Shown here piece after piece: positions 25,628 to 30,969 of a stretch of DNA of 64,000 nt (within the stretch, counting starts at the first letter, position 1; every line of letters begins with the position of its first letter). Location of the stretch: positions 558,001-622,000 of the forward strand of contig NZ_CP098732.1 of NCBI RefSeq assembly GCF_023824315.1. Reading direction: 5' to 3'. This DNA is from Acinetobacter tibetensis. GTDB lineage: Bacteria; Pseudomonadota; Gammaproteobacteria; Pseudomonadales; Moraxellaceae. The position numbers were made by a program, and so were the translations under genes. The notes below the pieces were generated by a model that ran no database searches, was not told where the DNA came from, and saw only the letters and a list, made by a program, of their open reading frames with translations.

Positions 25628-27271
25628 TTAACTAAACTCGCCCGTTGTACGCTCTTTGGCCCAGTCGCGCAGGACAAATTTTTGTAGCTTGCCTGTCGAA
25701 GTTTTTGGAATTTCCGTAATCACCACATCTTTAGGGACTTTAAAGCGTGCCAGATGTTGCTTACAGAATTCAATGATTTCCTCTGGGGTAGTTTCTTTGC
25801 CTGCTTTGAGCTCGATAAAGGCGCAAGGGACTTCTTGCCAACGCGGATCAGGTTTGGCAACCACCGCGGCCGTTAAAATGGCGGGATGTCGATACAAGAC
25901 TTCTTCCACTTCTAAAGAAGAGATATTTTCGCCGCCTGAAATAATGACATCTTTGGAGCGGTCGGTAATTTTGGCATAACCATCAGGTTGGCAAACTGCC
26001 AAATCACCTGTATGGAACCAACCACCCTTAAAGGCTTCTGTGGTTGCTTCAGGGTTTTTCAGATAACCTTTCATGACAATGTTACCACGGAACATAATTT
26101 CGCCCATTGTTGTTCCATCTTTAGGCACAGGTTCTAAGGTTTCTGGATCAAGCACTTTCATACCATCTTGCAGCGGATAAGGAACACCTTGACGCGAATG
26201 CAGTTGCGCTTGTTCTTGAATACTTAATTCACTCCAGCCTGCTTGAGACGCACAAAGGGCAGAAGGCCCATAAGTTTCCGTGAGACCGTAGACATGTGTG
26301 ACATTAATGCCAATATTACGCATCCCTTCAATAATCGCAGCAGGGGGCGCTGCACCTGCCACCATGACTTCGACGCGATGTTCAAACTTAATTTGTTTCT
26401 GTTCTGGAGTATTAATTAACATCGATAACACAATCGGTGCGCCACAGAAATAATCCACTTTATGCACTGCAATTAAGTTAAAGATCAATTCAGGGTCAAC
26501 TTTACGTAAGCAAATGTTAGTACCGCCATTGGCAGCCATGGTCCAAGCAAAACACCAACCATTGCAATGGAACAGCGGTAAAGTCCATAGGTAGGTGGCA
26601 CGTGGTGTCATACCGCAAGCGATGATATTACTGGCCGCATTAATGTATGCTCCGCGATGGTGATAAACCACGCCTTTAGGGTTGCCTGTCGTACCCGAAG
26701 TATAGTTCAGGCTAATGGCATCCCATTCATCACTGGGTAAATGCCATTCAAACTCAGCATCGCCTTCTGCGAGCCAGTCTTCATATTCAATTTGACCAAT
26801 CGGAGTGGAAAAACATTGTTCGTATTCTTCATCATCCACATCAATCACGTAAATTGGCTGTGAAACTAAACTTAAAGCTTCTTTGGCAAGTGGTGCGAAT
26901 TCAGGGTCAACTAAAAGTACTTTGGTTTCAGCGTGTTCTAGCATAAATGCGATAGTTTTAGCATCTAAGCGTGTATTCAGGGTATTTAATACGGCACCAA
27001 TCATCGGCACTGCGAAGTGGGCTTCAAGCATGGCTGGAATATTGGGTAACAGTACTGAAACTGTATCATTTTTACCGATGCCTAATTTTTGTAACTGCTG
27101 TGCAAATTGGCGGCAACGATTGTAGGTTTCACGCCAACTGATACGTCGCTTACCGTGAATGATTGCATCTTGATTCGGGTAAATATAAGCGGCGCGTTCT
27201 AAATAACGCAGGGGTGAAAGTGCAACAAAATTCGCTGGGGTGCGCGGTAGTTCATCGTAGGCAGCAACCAT
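25628..27271 (-). CDS. Acyl-CoA synthetase (AMP-binding, AlkK-like)
   Basis: 547 residues. An ANL-family ligase that activates fatty acids to acyl-CoA through an acyl-AMP intermediate. Seen: LNYTSGTTGNPKGVVYHHRG (P-loop, about 190-209), YGLTETYGPS (adenine site), GWFHTGDLAVCQPDGYAKIT and DRSKDVIISGGENISSLEVE (hinge), and KTSTGKLQKFVLR with the C-terminal catalytic lysine. The sequence style matches medium-chain ligases such as AlkK; chain length is inferred. A GGAG site stands 7 bp before the ATG. It is divergent from thrS across a 489-bp gap. Confidence 0.9.
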   Translation of the reverse strand: MVAAYDELPRTPANFVALSPLRYLERAAYIYPNQDAIIHGKRRISWRETYNRCRQFAQQLQKLGIGKNDTVSVLLPNIPAMLEAHFAVPMIGAVLNTLNTRLDAKTIAFMLEHAETKVLLVDPEFAPLAKEALSLVSQPIYVIDVDDEEYEQCFSTPIGQIEYEDWLAEGDAEFEWHLPSDEWDAISLNYTSGTTGNPKGVVYHHRGAYINAASNIIACGMTPRATYLWTLPLFHCNGWCFAWTMAANGGTNICLRKVDPELIFNLIAVHKVDYFCGAPIVLSMLINTPEQKQIKFEHRVEVMVAGAAPPAAIIEGMRNIGINVTHVYGLTETYGPSALCASQAGWSELSIQEQAQLHSRQGVPYPLQDGMKVLDPETLEPVPKDGTTMGEIMFRGNIVMKGYLKNPEATTEAFKGGWFHTGDLAVCQPDGYAKITDRSKDVIISGGENISSLEVEEVLYRHPAILTAAVVAKPDPRWQEVPCAFIELKAGKETTPEEIIEFCKQHLARFKVPKDVVITEIPKTSTGKLQKFVLRDWAKERTTGEFS

Positions 27272-27713
27272 CTAACAACTCCATGTATATTTATTATCAT
27301 CGATGCTTTAAAGATAAGCATTTCAAGTTGGACTTGCATTTATGCTTTAGTCGAGGGGTTACTTTTTTATAAAGTAATGAATTTTATGTAAAAATATTCA
27401 ATAGTTGGTGTTTTTTGAATCTTTGTTCATAAATGTGATTAAATTCAAATATATATGAAAAAGTAGAAGGTGTGTTTGTTTTTTAATCTCATTTGTCAAT
27501 GCAGAAAACTATAGCGAATAAAAATATATGCATGACATCAAGATTGAAAATCATTCTAAAAGGTTCAAATGCATAAAAAATGACAATTTTTTGATTGGGA
27601 TAAGATTTATCGAGTTAAAAGGTTTTATCCAACCCTGAACCCGTGTAAAATTCTTAGCAGTTTTTATCCACCGTTTTTATCTTTTGAGGTTTTACCTCGA
27701 TCATAATCTCGCG
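27272..27713. other. AT-rich gap upstream of thrS
   Basis: About 440 bp without a gene. It must contain the promoters for the divergent ligase and thrS. A small hairpin GAGGT-TTT-ACCTC lies at 27686-27698 and could be a second folded domain of the thrS leader. No other structure stands out. Confidence 0.5.
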
Positions 27714-27743
27714 GTGACATGCTCCATGGTACGGGGCATCACT
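27714..27743 (+). promoter_or_regulatory. thrS leader hairpin mimicking the tRNA-Thr anticodon arm
   Basis: ATGCTCC (27719-27725) pairs with GGGGCAT (27733-27739) to form a 7-bp stem with one U-G pair, extended by GTG (27714-27716) with CAC (27740-27742) across a 2-nt bulge. The loop is exactly 7 nt, AUGGUAC: in anticodon-loop numbering U33, then G34 G35 U36 (a threonine anticodon), then A37. The thrS ribosome site AAGGA begins only a few bases later. In E. coli, threonyl-tRNA synthetase represses its own translation by binding an anticodon-like hairpin in this place. The structure is seen; the function here is inferred. Confidence 0.7.
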
Positions 27744-27760
27744 CCTTAAGGATTTTTTTT

Positions 27761-29683
27761 ATGCCAATTATCACTTTGCCAAATGGCGATCAAAAACAAT
27801 TTGATCAAGCCGTATCTGTGATGGACGTTGCACTGAGCATCGGTCCGGGTCTTGCTAAAAATACAGTTGCAGGAAAAGTCGATGGTCGCTTAGTCGACGC
27901 ATCTGACCTAATTACCACGGATGCAAGCCTTCAAATTATTACGCCTAAAGACGAAGAAGGTGTCGAAATTATTCGTCACTCTTGCGCTCACTTGGTGGGA
28001 CATGCAGTTAAGCAATTGTTCCCTGAAGCGAAAATGGTGATTGGTCCAGTCATTGAAGATGGCTTCTATTACGATATTTTCAGTGCAAAGCCATTTACGC
28101 CAGAAGACATGGCTGCCATCGAAGAGCGTATGAAAAAGCTCATCGACCAAGATTATGATGTCATTAAAAAAATGACCCCACGCGATGAGGTGATTGCAGA
28201 ATTCACAGCGCGTGGTGAAGATTATAAATTACGCTTGATTGCAGACATGCCAAATGAAACTCAAATGGGCTTGTACTACCATCAAGACTATTTGGACATG
28301 TGTCGCGGTCCACACGTACCAAATACTAAATTTTTAAAAGCATTCAAGCTGACTAAAATGTCAGGCGCTTATTGGCGTGGGGATGCAAAGAATGAACAGT
28401 TACAACGTATTTATGGTACGGCGTGGGCGGATAAGAAACAGCTTGCGGCTTATATCAAGCGTATTGAAGAAGCTGAAAAGCGTGACCACCGTAAAATTGG
28501 TAAAGCTTTAGACTTGTTCCATATGCAAGAAGAAGCACCGGGTATGGTGTTCTGGCATCCAAATGGTTGGACCATTTACCAAGTGCTTGAACAATACATG
28601 CGTAAAGTTCAGCAAGACAATGGTTATCTCGAAATTAAAACGCCACAAATCGTAGACTTTACGTTGTGGGAAAAATCAGGTCATGCGGCAAACTACGCAG
28701 ACAACATGTTTACGACCCATTCTGAAAGTCGTAACTATGCTGTGAAGCCAATGAACTGCCCATGTCACGTGCAAGTGTTTAACCAAGGTTTGAAGTCTTA
28801 CCGTGATTTGCCAATTCGTTTAGCAGAGTTTGGTTCGTGTCATCGTAATGAGCCATCAGGTTCATTGCACGGTATTATGCGTGTACGTGGCTTTACCCAA
28901 GATGATGCACACATCTTCTGTACCAAAGAACAAATTGGTAAAGAGGTTGCTGACTTTATTAAACTGACTTTAGATGTTTATAAAGACTTTGGTTTCGAAG
29001 ACGTGCAAATGAAATTGTCTACACGTCCAGAAAAACGCGTGGGTGATGATGCACTTTGGGATATGGCGGAAAAATCTTTAGCAGATGCTTTGGATGCTGC
29101 TGGTCTTGCTTGGGAGTTACAACCAGGTGAAGGGGCATTCTACGGTCCGAAAATTGAATTCTCGTTGAAAGACTGCTTAGGTCGAGTATGGCAATGTGGT
29201 ACAATCCAATGTGACTTCAATTTACCAGAACGTTTAGATGCGTCATATGTCACTGAAGATAATGACCGTGATCAACCTGTAATGTTGCATCGTGCAATTC
29301 TTGGTAGTTTTGAACGTTTTATTGGTATACTTATTGAACACTATGCGGGCTTTATGCCACCTTGGTTAACACCAATCCAAGCATGTGTGATGAACATTAC
29401 CGATTCGCAAGCAGAAGCTTGTGAGTCTGTCGTTGCGAAACTTAAAGAAAACGGTCTCCGTGCGATTTCAGACTTGAGAAATGAGAAAATCGGCTTTAAG
29501 ATTCGTGAACGTACATTAGAGCGTATTCCTTACTTATTGGTCCTTGGAGACCGTGAAGTAGAGGAAGGTACTGTAAACGTCCGTACCCGCTCTGGAAAAA
29601 ATTTGGGTACTATGTCAATCGACGCTTTCGTTGACTTAGTAAAAGCAGCCGTTGCCGAACGCGGCCGGTACATTGTGGAGTAA
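27761..29683 (+). CDS. thrS: Threonyl-tRNA synthetase
   Basis: 640 residues from the ATG at 27761, which has AAGGA 8 bp upstream; an in-frame ATG at 27719 falls inside the leader hairpin and is rejected. Domains: TGS (1-65), editing domain with [16 protein letters not shown] (zinc-type His motif, about 70) and CRGPHVPNT, the class II catalytic core with [10 protein letters not shown] (zinc Cys near 335), [14 protein letters not shown] and the late [19 protein letters not shown], and an anticodon-binding C-terminus. First gene of the thrS-infC operon; the leader suggests autogenous control. Confidence 0.96.
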
Positions 29684-29688
29684 CAGCG

Positions 29689-30240
29689 ATTAAACAGCCT
29701 GACCGTAATCAACAGGGCGGTAACAAATCAAACCGTCCTGCTTTGAATGATGAAATTCGTGCGAAAGAAGTTCGTCTTGTAGACGAAAATGGTGAGCAAA
29801 AAGGTATTGTAAGCTTGGCAGATGCATTGCGCGCTGCTGAAAGTGTTGAGCTTGATCTGGTTGAGATCGTAGCAAACGCTGAACCGCCTGTTTGTAAAAT
29901 CATGGACTTCAACAAGCATTTGTTTGATCTAAAGCAAAAGCAGAAAGAAGCGAAGAAAAAACAGCATCAAGTACAGGTGAAAGAAATCAAACTCCGCCCT
30001 GGTACTGATGTTGGTGATTACAACGTAAAATTACGTGCAATTATCAAGTTCCTTGAAGAAGGCAATAAGGTAAAAATCACATTACGCTTCCGTGGTCGTG
30101 AAATGGCTCACCAACAGTTAGGTTTGGCTCAATTACAGAAAATTGAAACAGATGTGGCTGAATTTGGTATTGTAGAGCAAGCACCAAAGATGGAAGGTCG
30201 TCAAATGGGTATGTTACTTGGTCCTAAAAAGAAAAAGTAA
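29689..30240 (+). CDS. infC: Translation initiation factor IF-3
   Basis: 183 residues from an ATT start at 29689, which has GGAG 8 bp upstream (overlapping the end of thrS) and gives [20 protein letters not shown], the usual N-terminus. A TTG at 29743 would remove this conserved part and has no ribosome site. infC genes characteristically use AUU/AUC starts, by which IF-3 represses its own synthesis. Seen: [55 protein letters not shown] and [19 protein letters not shown]. It is 5 bp after thrS and ends with its own terminator, not followed by rpmI. Confidence 0.95.
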
Positions 30241-30309: not shown

Positions 30310-30969
30310 CTAACCAATTTGATTATGACCTGATAAAGTTGCTTGCAAAGCGCATAAGCCTTCTATCTCAAGTCCAATCTGAATATTCCTAAAGTTAGCA
30401 TTACTTAAGCTTTGTATATGTTCATCTTTGGTCATATACAGTTCGAGATTCTTCATATTTCCATCAGGTTGAGCCAAGTGATCTGTAATGAAGTAAGAGC
30501 CATTGGGTTGGATGACTTGTTGTGCAATACTTTTATGAAAATCACAGGCGTATGCTTTATGGCGAAGTTCATGTAAAGCTTGATGAATCACGATATAGTC
30601 AAAGCGTTGACCATTGAGTACTGTATACCAATCCTGTTGTTTAAAGTCAGCTAGGATGAAATCTACGGACTTATGGGGAATAGCCGCTAAGCGTTGTTTG
30701 GCTAAGTTATGCATAGCTGCTGAAAAATCGACGGCTGTATAATTAATACTAGGTCGTCTACTTAAGAGCTCATATGCAAAGAAACCAGGGCCAGAGCCTA
30801 ATTCTAAAATACGAATATCTTGTTTAAGGTCGGCTAAAATTTGAGATACATAATAAGCAAAAAACTGTTGTCGATAAGGTCGCTTAAAGTTGGCTTCATT
30901 TGCCCACTGTATTGCATGAAGTGAGTCTTGTAAGTTGATTGGGCTAGGAATATCTATGATTTTATGCAT
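30310..30969 (-). CDS. Class I SAM-dependent methyltransferase, substrate unknown
   Basis: 219 residues. Motif I ILELGSGPGFFAYELLSRRP (about 54-73) and the acidic AVDFSAAMHNLAKQRL show SAM binding; FILADF and FDYIVIHQALHEL complete the Rossmann-like core. There is no signal peptide. It is not one of the well-known RNA or ubiquinone methyltransferases that I can recognise, so the substrate is open. It sits alone between the convergent infC and the divergent GST gene. The insertion of this and neighbouring genes separates infC from rpmI-rplT. Confidence 0.8.
   Translation of the reverse strand: MHKIIDIPSPINLQDSLHAIQWANEANFKRPYRQQFFAYYVSQILADLKQDIRILELGSGPGFFAYELLSRRPSINYTAVDFSAAMHNLAKQRLAAIPHKSVDFILADFKQQDWYTVLNGQRFDYIVIHQALHELRHKAYACDFHKSIAQQVIQPNGSYFITDHLAQPDGNMKNLELYMTKDEHIQSLSNANFRNIQIGLEIEGLCALQATLSGHNQIG

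Follow-up and report, generated by a model that had tools for sequence, protein, structure and literature searches.

The thrS gene of Acinetobacter tibetensis is preceded by a hairpin that resembles the anticodon arm of tRNA-Thr and that is very probably an operator bound by threonyl-tRNA synthetase (ThrRS), a reading to which its structure, its place, its conservation and covariation, its likeness to the Escherichia coli operator and the conservation of the enzyme all point. In the window, by which we mean the whole 64-kb stretch of DNA that was analysed, the hairpin occupies positions 27719-27739 of the plus strand, on which the other elements of the leader and thrS itself also lie. Just as the preliminary description had reported, it consists of a 7-bp stem (5' strand ATGCTCC, 27719-27725; 3' strand GGGGCAT, 27733-27739) and a 7-nt loop, ATGGTAC (27726-27732), which, numbered as an anticodon loop, reads A32 U33 G34 G35 U36 A37 C38, with U33 at 27727, the threonine anticodon G34-G35-U36 at 27728-27730 and A37 at 27731. 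The hairpin, which was delimited from the sequence, its conservation in the genus and its covariation, lies 42 to 22 nt upstream of the thrS start codon, the ATG at 27761 of a 640-amino-acid ThrRS (27761-29683; TIGR00418, 740.8 bits). The Shine-Dalgarno sequence AAGGA (27748-27752) begins 9 nt past the stem, inside TCCTTAAGGA (27743-27752), which is identical in 34/34 distinct Acinetobacter leaders in our alignment. TCCTTAAGGA is also a palindrome holding the Shine-Dalgarno bases, in which a 3-bp hairpin could form. On both strands of the window, 203 stretches can form 7/7 pairs around a 7-nt loop, and only three of these carry U33 together with G35-U36, namely the thrS mimic and two A/U-rich ones.

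One detail of the preliminary description had to be revised, the extension of the stem by three further pairs. Pairing of GTG (27714-27716) with CAC (27740-27742) is possible, but the resulting fold reaches only -24.5 kcal/mol, while in the favoured fold the same bases pair with an upstream CACCG instead; the extension thus costs 3.5 kcal/mol, and we rejected it as the real base of the hairpin because it breaks the outer stem of an upstream hairpin and yields a less stable fold. The favoured fold of the 112-nt leader, at -28.0 kcal/mol, has a z score of -2.8, with equally stable folds in 2/200 shuffles. A different base suggested by the relatives, A27717-U27743 and G27716-C27744, gives -25.9 kcal/mol.

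Within the genus, a search pattern that combined the ends of the stem with GU and with the flank downstream was found exactly once in 117/119 Acinetobacter genomes, and a backwards control pattern in 0 of the 119. In both genomes without the mimic an intact thrS start is lacking: for G029 the match to the thrS model is confined to positions 239-563, and for G030 no thrS match exceeds the cut-off. The pattern itself requires GU, so that the invariance of these two bases is read from the fact that every genome whose thrS start is intact matches it. The wobble base, by contrast, takes all four letters among the 117 genomes (43 with U, 43 with G, 29 with C, 2 with A); U33 is retained in 112/117, and position 37 is occupied by A in 100 genomes and by G in 17. 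Therefore, the GGU loop, which the preliminary description had set apart from a CGU-type loop, is indeed present but has no special status, and because four wobble bases occur inside one genus it is ordinary drift. The stem varies little within Acinetobacter, with a double change at 1/7 pairs and two percent of non-pairing stem cells; at 31-39, 28/117 genomes have C-A or C-C instead of a pair. For alignment, 38 leaders of the genus were taken in full (the best 30 thrS of the 119 genomes, the window's own and 7 named ones), and 34 distinct leaders were aligned.

For a wider view we turned to 134 genomes of gammaproteobacteria, roughly one for each family, from which we obtained a class set of 116 leaders; this set does not include the window's genome, a genome lacking a match, G264, G326 and 14 genomes with partial or weak matches. 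Another 51 leaders came from 103 genomes of Moraxellaceae outside the genus, and 30 further leaders of the genus and those of 80 named relatives were added. In an anchor test, CACT within -45 to -8 of the start served as the sole anchor, and the preceding 21 nt were scored. At least 6/7 pairs together with G35-U36 were found at 178/206 near-start anchors versus 1/1680 elsewhere in the same loci and, in the class set alone, at 39/59 near-start anchors versus 0/261 far ones. Counted by leader, the mimic was present in 39/116 of the class set, 30/51 other Moraxellaceae, 30/30 of the genus and 77/80 named relatives (the misses being L012, L028 and L080), and a wider search range raised the other Moraxellaceae to 31/51. 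The mimic is missing from 77/116 class leaders by the anchor test and from 20/51 other Moraxellaceae leaders by the wider search. Its pattern in Moraxellaceae reads as recent loss in genus g9 and absence in genus g2. Leaders without it are 5/10 in genus g9 (L232-L236) and 6/6 in genus g2 (L268, L275, L278, L279, L281, L282).

The preliminary description had asked whether the stem changes in a compensatory manner and whether the anticodon bases drift freely among relatives. In 127 distinct CACT-anchored sequences, a set selected neither on stem pairs nor on GU, 761/889 stem cells were paired versus 590 ± 10 after strand shuffling, demonstrating that the stem covaries across gammaproteobacteria; in the class set the figures were 284/378 versus 237 ± 6. 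The loop-closing pair was formed in only 81/127 of the anchored sequences. In the loop, NGU is kept and only N34 drifts. With compensatory stem changes and a kept NGU, the proposed reading as a tRNA-Thr anticodon-arm mimic in front of thrS is well supported. A covariance model, R1, built from 38 class sequences plus the window, matched beside thrS in 41/134 class genomes at E <= 2.6e-4, only two of the 41 matches coming from outside the model, and two further matches at E <= 1e-3 fell away from thrS. With R1, the element now has a covariance model, which Rfam 15 does not provide for it, not even for its E. coli form: no thrS-type family of Rfam 15 matched the window or the E. coli leader, for the leaders even at a relaxed threshold.

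An ordinary hairpin at the ribosome site, acting through standby binding or stability and without ThrRS, would adjoin the Shine-Dalgarno sequence in the same way, and elements of this type commonly influence translation with no ligand involved; the likeness to an anticodon would then be accidental. We consider this highly improbable in view of the dinucleotide at positions 35-36, which in 7/7-stem leaders near the start was GU in 143 cases, related leaders counted singly, while AU, the next most frequent of 16 possible dinucleotides, reached 10, and in view of the stem letters, which vary between leaders while GU stays. Furthermore, the hairpin is fixed at thrS, the best other match in the genome having E = 2.17. 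On this figure we also dismissed additional targets of ThrRS elsewhere in the genome. Plasmids gave no match. Even less credible is a T-box, another tRNA-reading leader or an attenuator: T-boxes and attenuators are generally known to control synthetase genes in other bacteria, but the loop carries the anticodon GGU and not a threonine codon, the window has no Rfam match at gathering scores, the thrS leaders have none at E <= 1 (their sole match being a cspA model elsewhere in L015), and no terminator-like site was found in 27270-27770. With neither an Rfam match nor a specifier codon nor a terminator-like site, we discarded these candidates.

The ThrRS-binding operator that we favour has a second, nearly invariant part, which lies outside the anticodon arm. 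The 5' flank of the mimic is G(-3) A(-2) C(-1) (27716-27718) and its 3' flank CACU followed by C(+5) (27740-27744), where A(-2) and CACU are nearly invariant and C(+5), at 27744, is the partner of G(-3). We examined 126 distinct hairpins that were chosen by their six outer pairs and GU, and whose stem pairing is partly by construction for that reason, and that were found without using CACT. CACT directly followed in 122/126 of them (in 91/94 when U33 was also required), and A(-2) was present in all 122 CACT-bearing hairpins and in 123/126 overall. Positions -3 and +5 were paired in 110/122 (C-G 60, G-C 31, U-G 15, U-A 4) and unpaired in 12/122 (C-A 10, A-G 2). In Moraxellaceae, the two positions were paired in 54/54 with four pair types, whereas the 38 class hairpins showed no gain over shuffles (z -0.2); covariation of -3/+5 is thus seen in Moraxellaceae only, because the class set is nearly always C-G (C-G 35, U-G 2, C-A 1). 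The pooled flank z scores, 9.7 for (-3,+5), 9.1 for (-5,+6), 8.0 for (-8,+6) and 7.9 for (-3,+8), are inflated by relatedness, since several further flank positions come close to the score of -3/+5. A(-2) and U(+4) are able to pair besides -3/+5, so the hairpin likely has a base of two pairs, which one base opposite CAC would separate from the anticodon stem; the E. coli leader folds likewise, with six pairs underneath. For the other leaders, an extended lower helix of the E. coli kind was rejected, as their flanks pair less than shuffled ones. Judged from these alignments, the conservation of A..CACU, the part that does not mimic the tRNA, equals that of the anticodon. We take A(-2) and CACU to be the conserved motif of a 2002 structure paper, the abstract of which reportedly widens the mechanism, by means of a conserved RNA motif, to some of the Gram-negative bacteria. 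In laboratory evolution of E. coli MG1655, a thrS leader mutation arose in three strains of one population (PMC13148393), and coordinate mapping on the reference NC_000913.3 places its site inside CACU; weaker autoregulation as a consequence of the mutation is a suggestion of its authors, which they themselves call untested.

Upstream of the mimic, the alignment revealed another hairpin (27669-27716), present in 32/34 distinct Acinetobacter leaders. Its outer stem, CACCG (27669-27673) with CGGTG (27712-27716), shows one-sided changes only, while its cap, GAGG (27686-27689) with CCTC (27695-27698), has double changes at 4/4 pairs. This hairpin might be a true second ThrRS site, equivalent to domain 4 of E. 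coli, within a two-site operator; like domain 4 it lies upstream of the mimic, it is widespread in the genus and its cap covaries, and that it fails a strict scan for mimics proves little because E. coli domain 4 fails too. However, the loop of its cap varies both in its length and in its letters, with no conserved GU and nothing anticodon-like, and two leaders (L085, L097) keep the mimic without this upstream hairpin, and hence we regard a second site here as rather unlikely. Further upstream, the TGTAAAAT box (27644-27651), found in 34/38 Acinetobacter leaders, is a candidate -10 element, from which transcription would start near 27658; a consensus promoter scan does not have the TGTAAAAT box among its results, so that the thrS promoter here is putative.

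The number of mimics differs between lineages. In the strict scan, which covered 180 nt upstream of the start in 273 distinct leaders, 47/273 leaders had two or more GU hairpins, while each of the other 15 dinucleotides gave 1 (AC) or 0. Pseudomonas or Stutzerimonas accounted for 39 of the 47; their thrS leaders also carry the mimic, with GGU and CACU, at -40 to -41 from the start, and have as their own feature a second GU hairpin at -98 to -115, with CCTGCC and loops such as ACTGTGA. In pseudomonads (L015-L062, L083), the loop of this second hairpin, which lies upstream of the mimic, has the form N-C/U-N-GU with a varying base 34. No Acinetobacter leader had a second GU hairpin under the strict scan, which also misses E. 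coli domain 4. The covariance model matched three times consecutively in L141 (27.7, 17.0 and 16.2 bits) and three times in L118 (37.0, 14.3 and 8.9 bits, the last of which could be chance). Tandems of two or three anticodon-like hairpins ahead of thrS were noted in single genomes of the class sample, L141 (442-537, plus strand), L118 (290-388, minus strand) and L181 (107-161, plus strand), and three Moraxellaceae leaders (L248, L261, L269) have, besides the mimic, an extra hairpin with an anticodon-like loop at -102 to -107, followed by a T-rich stretch. Tentatively, and without quite favouring the idea, we suggest that thrS operators vary in valency around an invariant core, from a single mimic in Acinetobacter through pairs in pseudomonads and E. 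coli to tandem triplets in a few families, and that lineages gain and lose mimics, which would set the steepness of self-repression by the dimeric ThrRS. Acinetobacter would then carry its private upstream hairpin in place of a second mimic. Such differences in mimic number between lineages are experimentally testable.

The kind of element is already known from E. coli, whose thrS operator has domains 1-4 according to two reviews (PMC9976931, PMC11088916). In E. coli, as these and two other sources describe (PMC9976931, PMC11088916, PMC3858243, PMC6542539), hairpins like the tRNA-Thr anticodon arm are bound by ThrRS and the 30S subunit is kept off, and changing the loop to a methionine anticodon brings the gene under the control of MetRS. 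E. coli domain 2 is the same as the A. tibetensis mimic in having a 7-nt-loop hairpin with U33-N-G35-U36-R37 at -42 to -22, with A at the second base ahead of the stem, CACUG right behind it, and then AAGGA. The E. coli operator differs in having CGU in the loop in place of the GGU of A. tibetensis, a longer lower helix of six pairs below an internal loop and, as far as the reviews state, a second anticodon-like hairpin (PMC9976931, PMC11088916), whereas Acinetobacter has a different upstream hairpin without an anticodon-like loop. The probable Acinetobacter operator adds a lineage-specific upstream part to a known kind of element. In the open-access literature, which lacks the original papers sought, we found no description of an Acinetobacter thrS leader or operator. 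Both tRNA-Thr anticodon arms compared from the same genome, GGU (CTCCC-TTGGTAA-GGGAG) and UGU (ACTGA-CTTGTAA-TCAGT), have U33-N34-G35-U36-A37 in common with the mimic, which differs from them in its 7 pairs and, in this genome, in A32 and C38.

The enzyme is conserved as well. The TIGR00418 profile gives a single full thrS match in the genome, at 27761-29683, and the encoded ThrRS shares 63% identity with that of E. coli over 636 residues, including N575, R583, E600 and R609 of the E. coli enzyme, which are presumably its anticodon contacts. Solved relatives include the E. coli entries 1QF6 and 1KOG, the latter of which we take to be the complex of ThrRS with the operator. By analogy with E. 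coli, ThrRS binding, repression and competition by tRNA would be expected in Acinetobacter. Free ThrRS would read G35-U36 of the loop through its C-terminal anticodon-binding domain, as it does on tRNA-Thr, and would seat on the conserved base, consisting of A..U, the -3/+5 pair and the single base across from CAC; bound in this manner, it would cover the Shine-Dalgarno site and keep the 30S subunit off. Surplus ThrRS binding to the hairpin would most likely shut off its own production, while tRNA-Thr that is plentiful relative to ThrRS would draw the enzyme away and allow thrS to be translated. A textbook case of RNA mimicry is here extended to Acinetobacter by evolutionary evidence, in that the wobble base drifts while the bases read by ThrRS are fixed.

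A second full-length thrS occurs in 4/119 Acinetobacter genomes (L283-L286), and a mimic precedes it in 0/4 leaders. In the one genome where its neighbourhood was examined (L319, 7865-9781, minus strand), the neighbourhood also contains genes for a Fur-family protein, FolE2, dihydroorotase, phosphoribosyl-AMP cyclohydrolase and cysteinyl-tRNA synthetase. Zur targets in other bacteria include folE2, pyrC2, hisI2 and thrS2, as listed in a review on zinc regulons (PMC6103462). From its sequence context, the second thrS looks like a zinc-starvation copy that would escape control by the mimic.

Downstream of thrS in the window, the frame of infC (IF3; 29689-30240) runs from an ATT at 29689, with the TTG given in the list of open reading frames lying 18 codons further on; this would be an AUU start like that of E. 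coli infC. In E. coli, infC is followed by rpmI-rplT, which do not follow it here, since the next open reading frame of at least 60 amino acids (30310-30969) is methyltransferase-like and lies on the opposite strand. Immediately upstream of thrS, a tRNA-Val (GAC) gene was found in 15/16 class leaders tested, mostly ones without the mimic (L116, L136, L144, L152, L166, L177, L181, L185, L193, L198, L202, L212, L213, L218, L225); two of these, L116 and L181, have both the tRNA-Val gene and the mimic.
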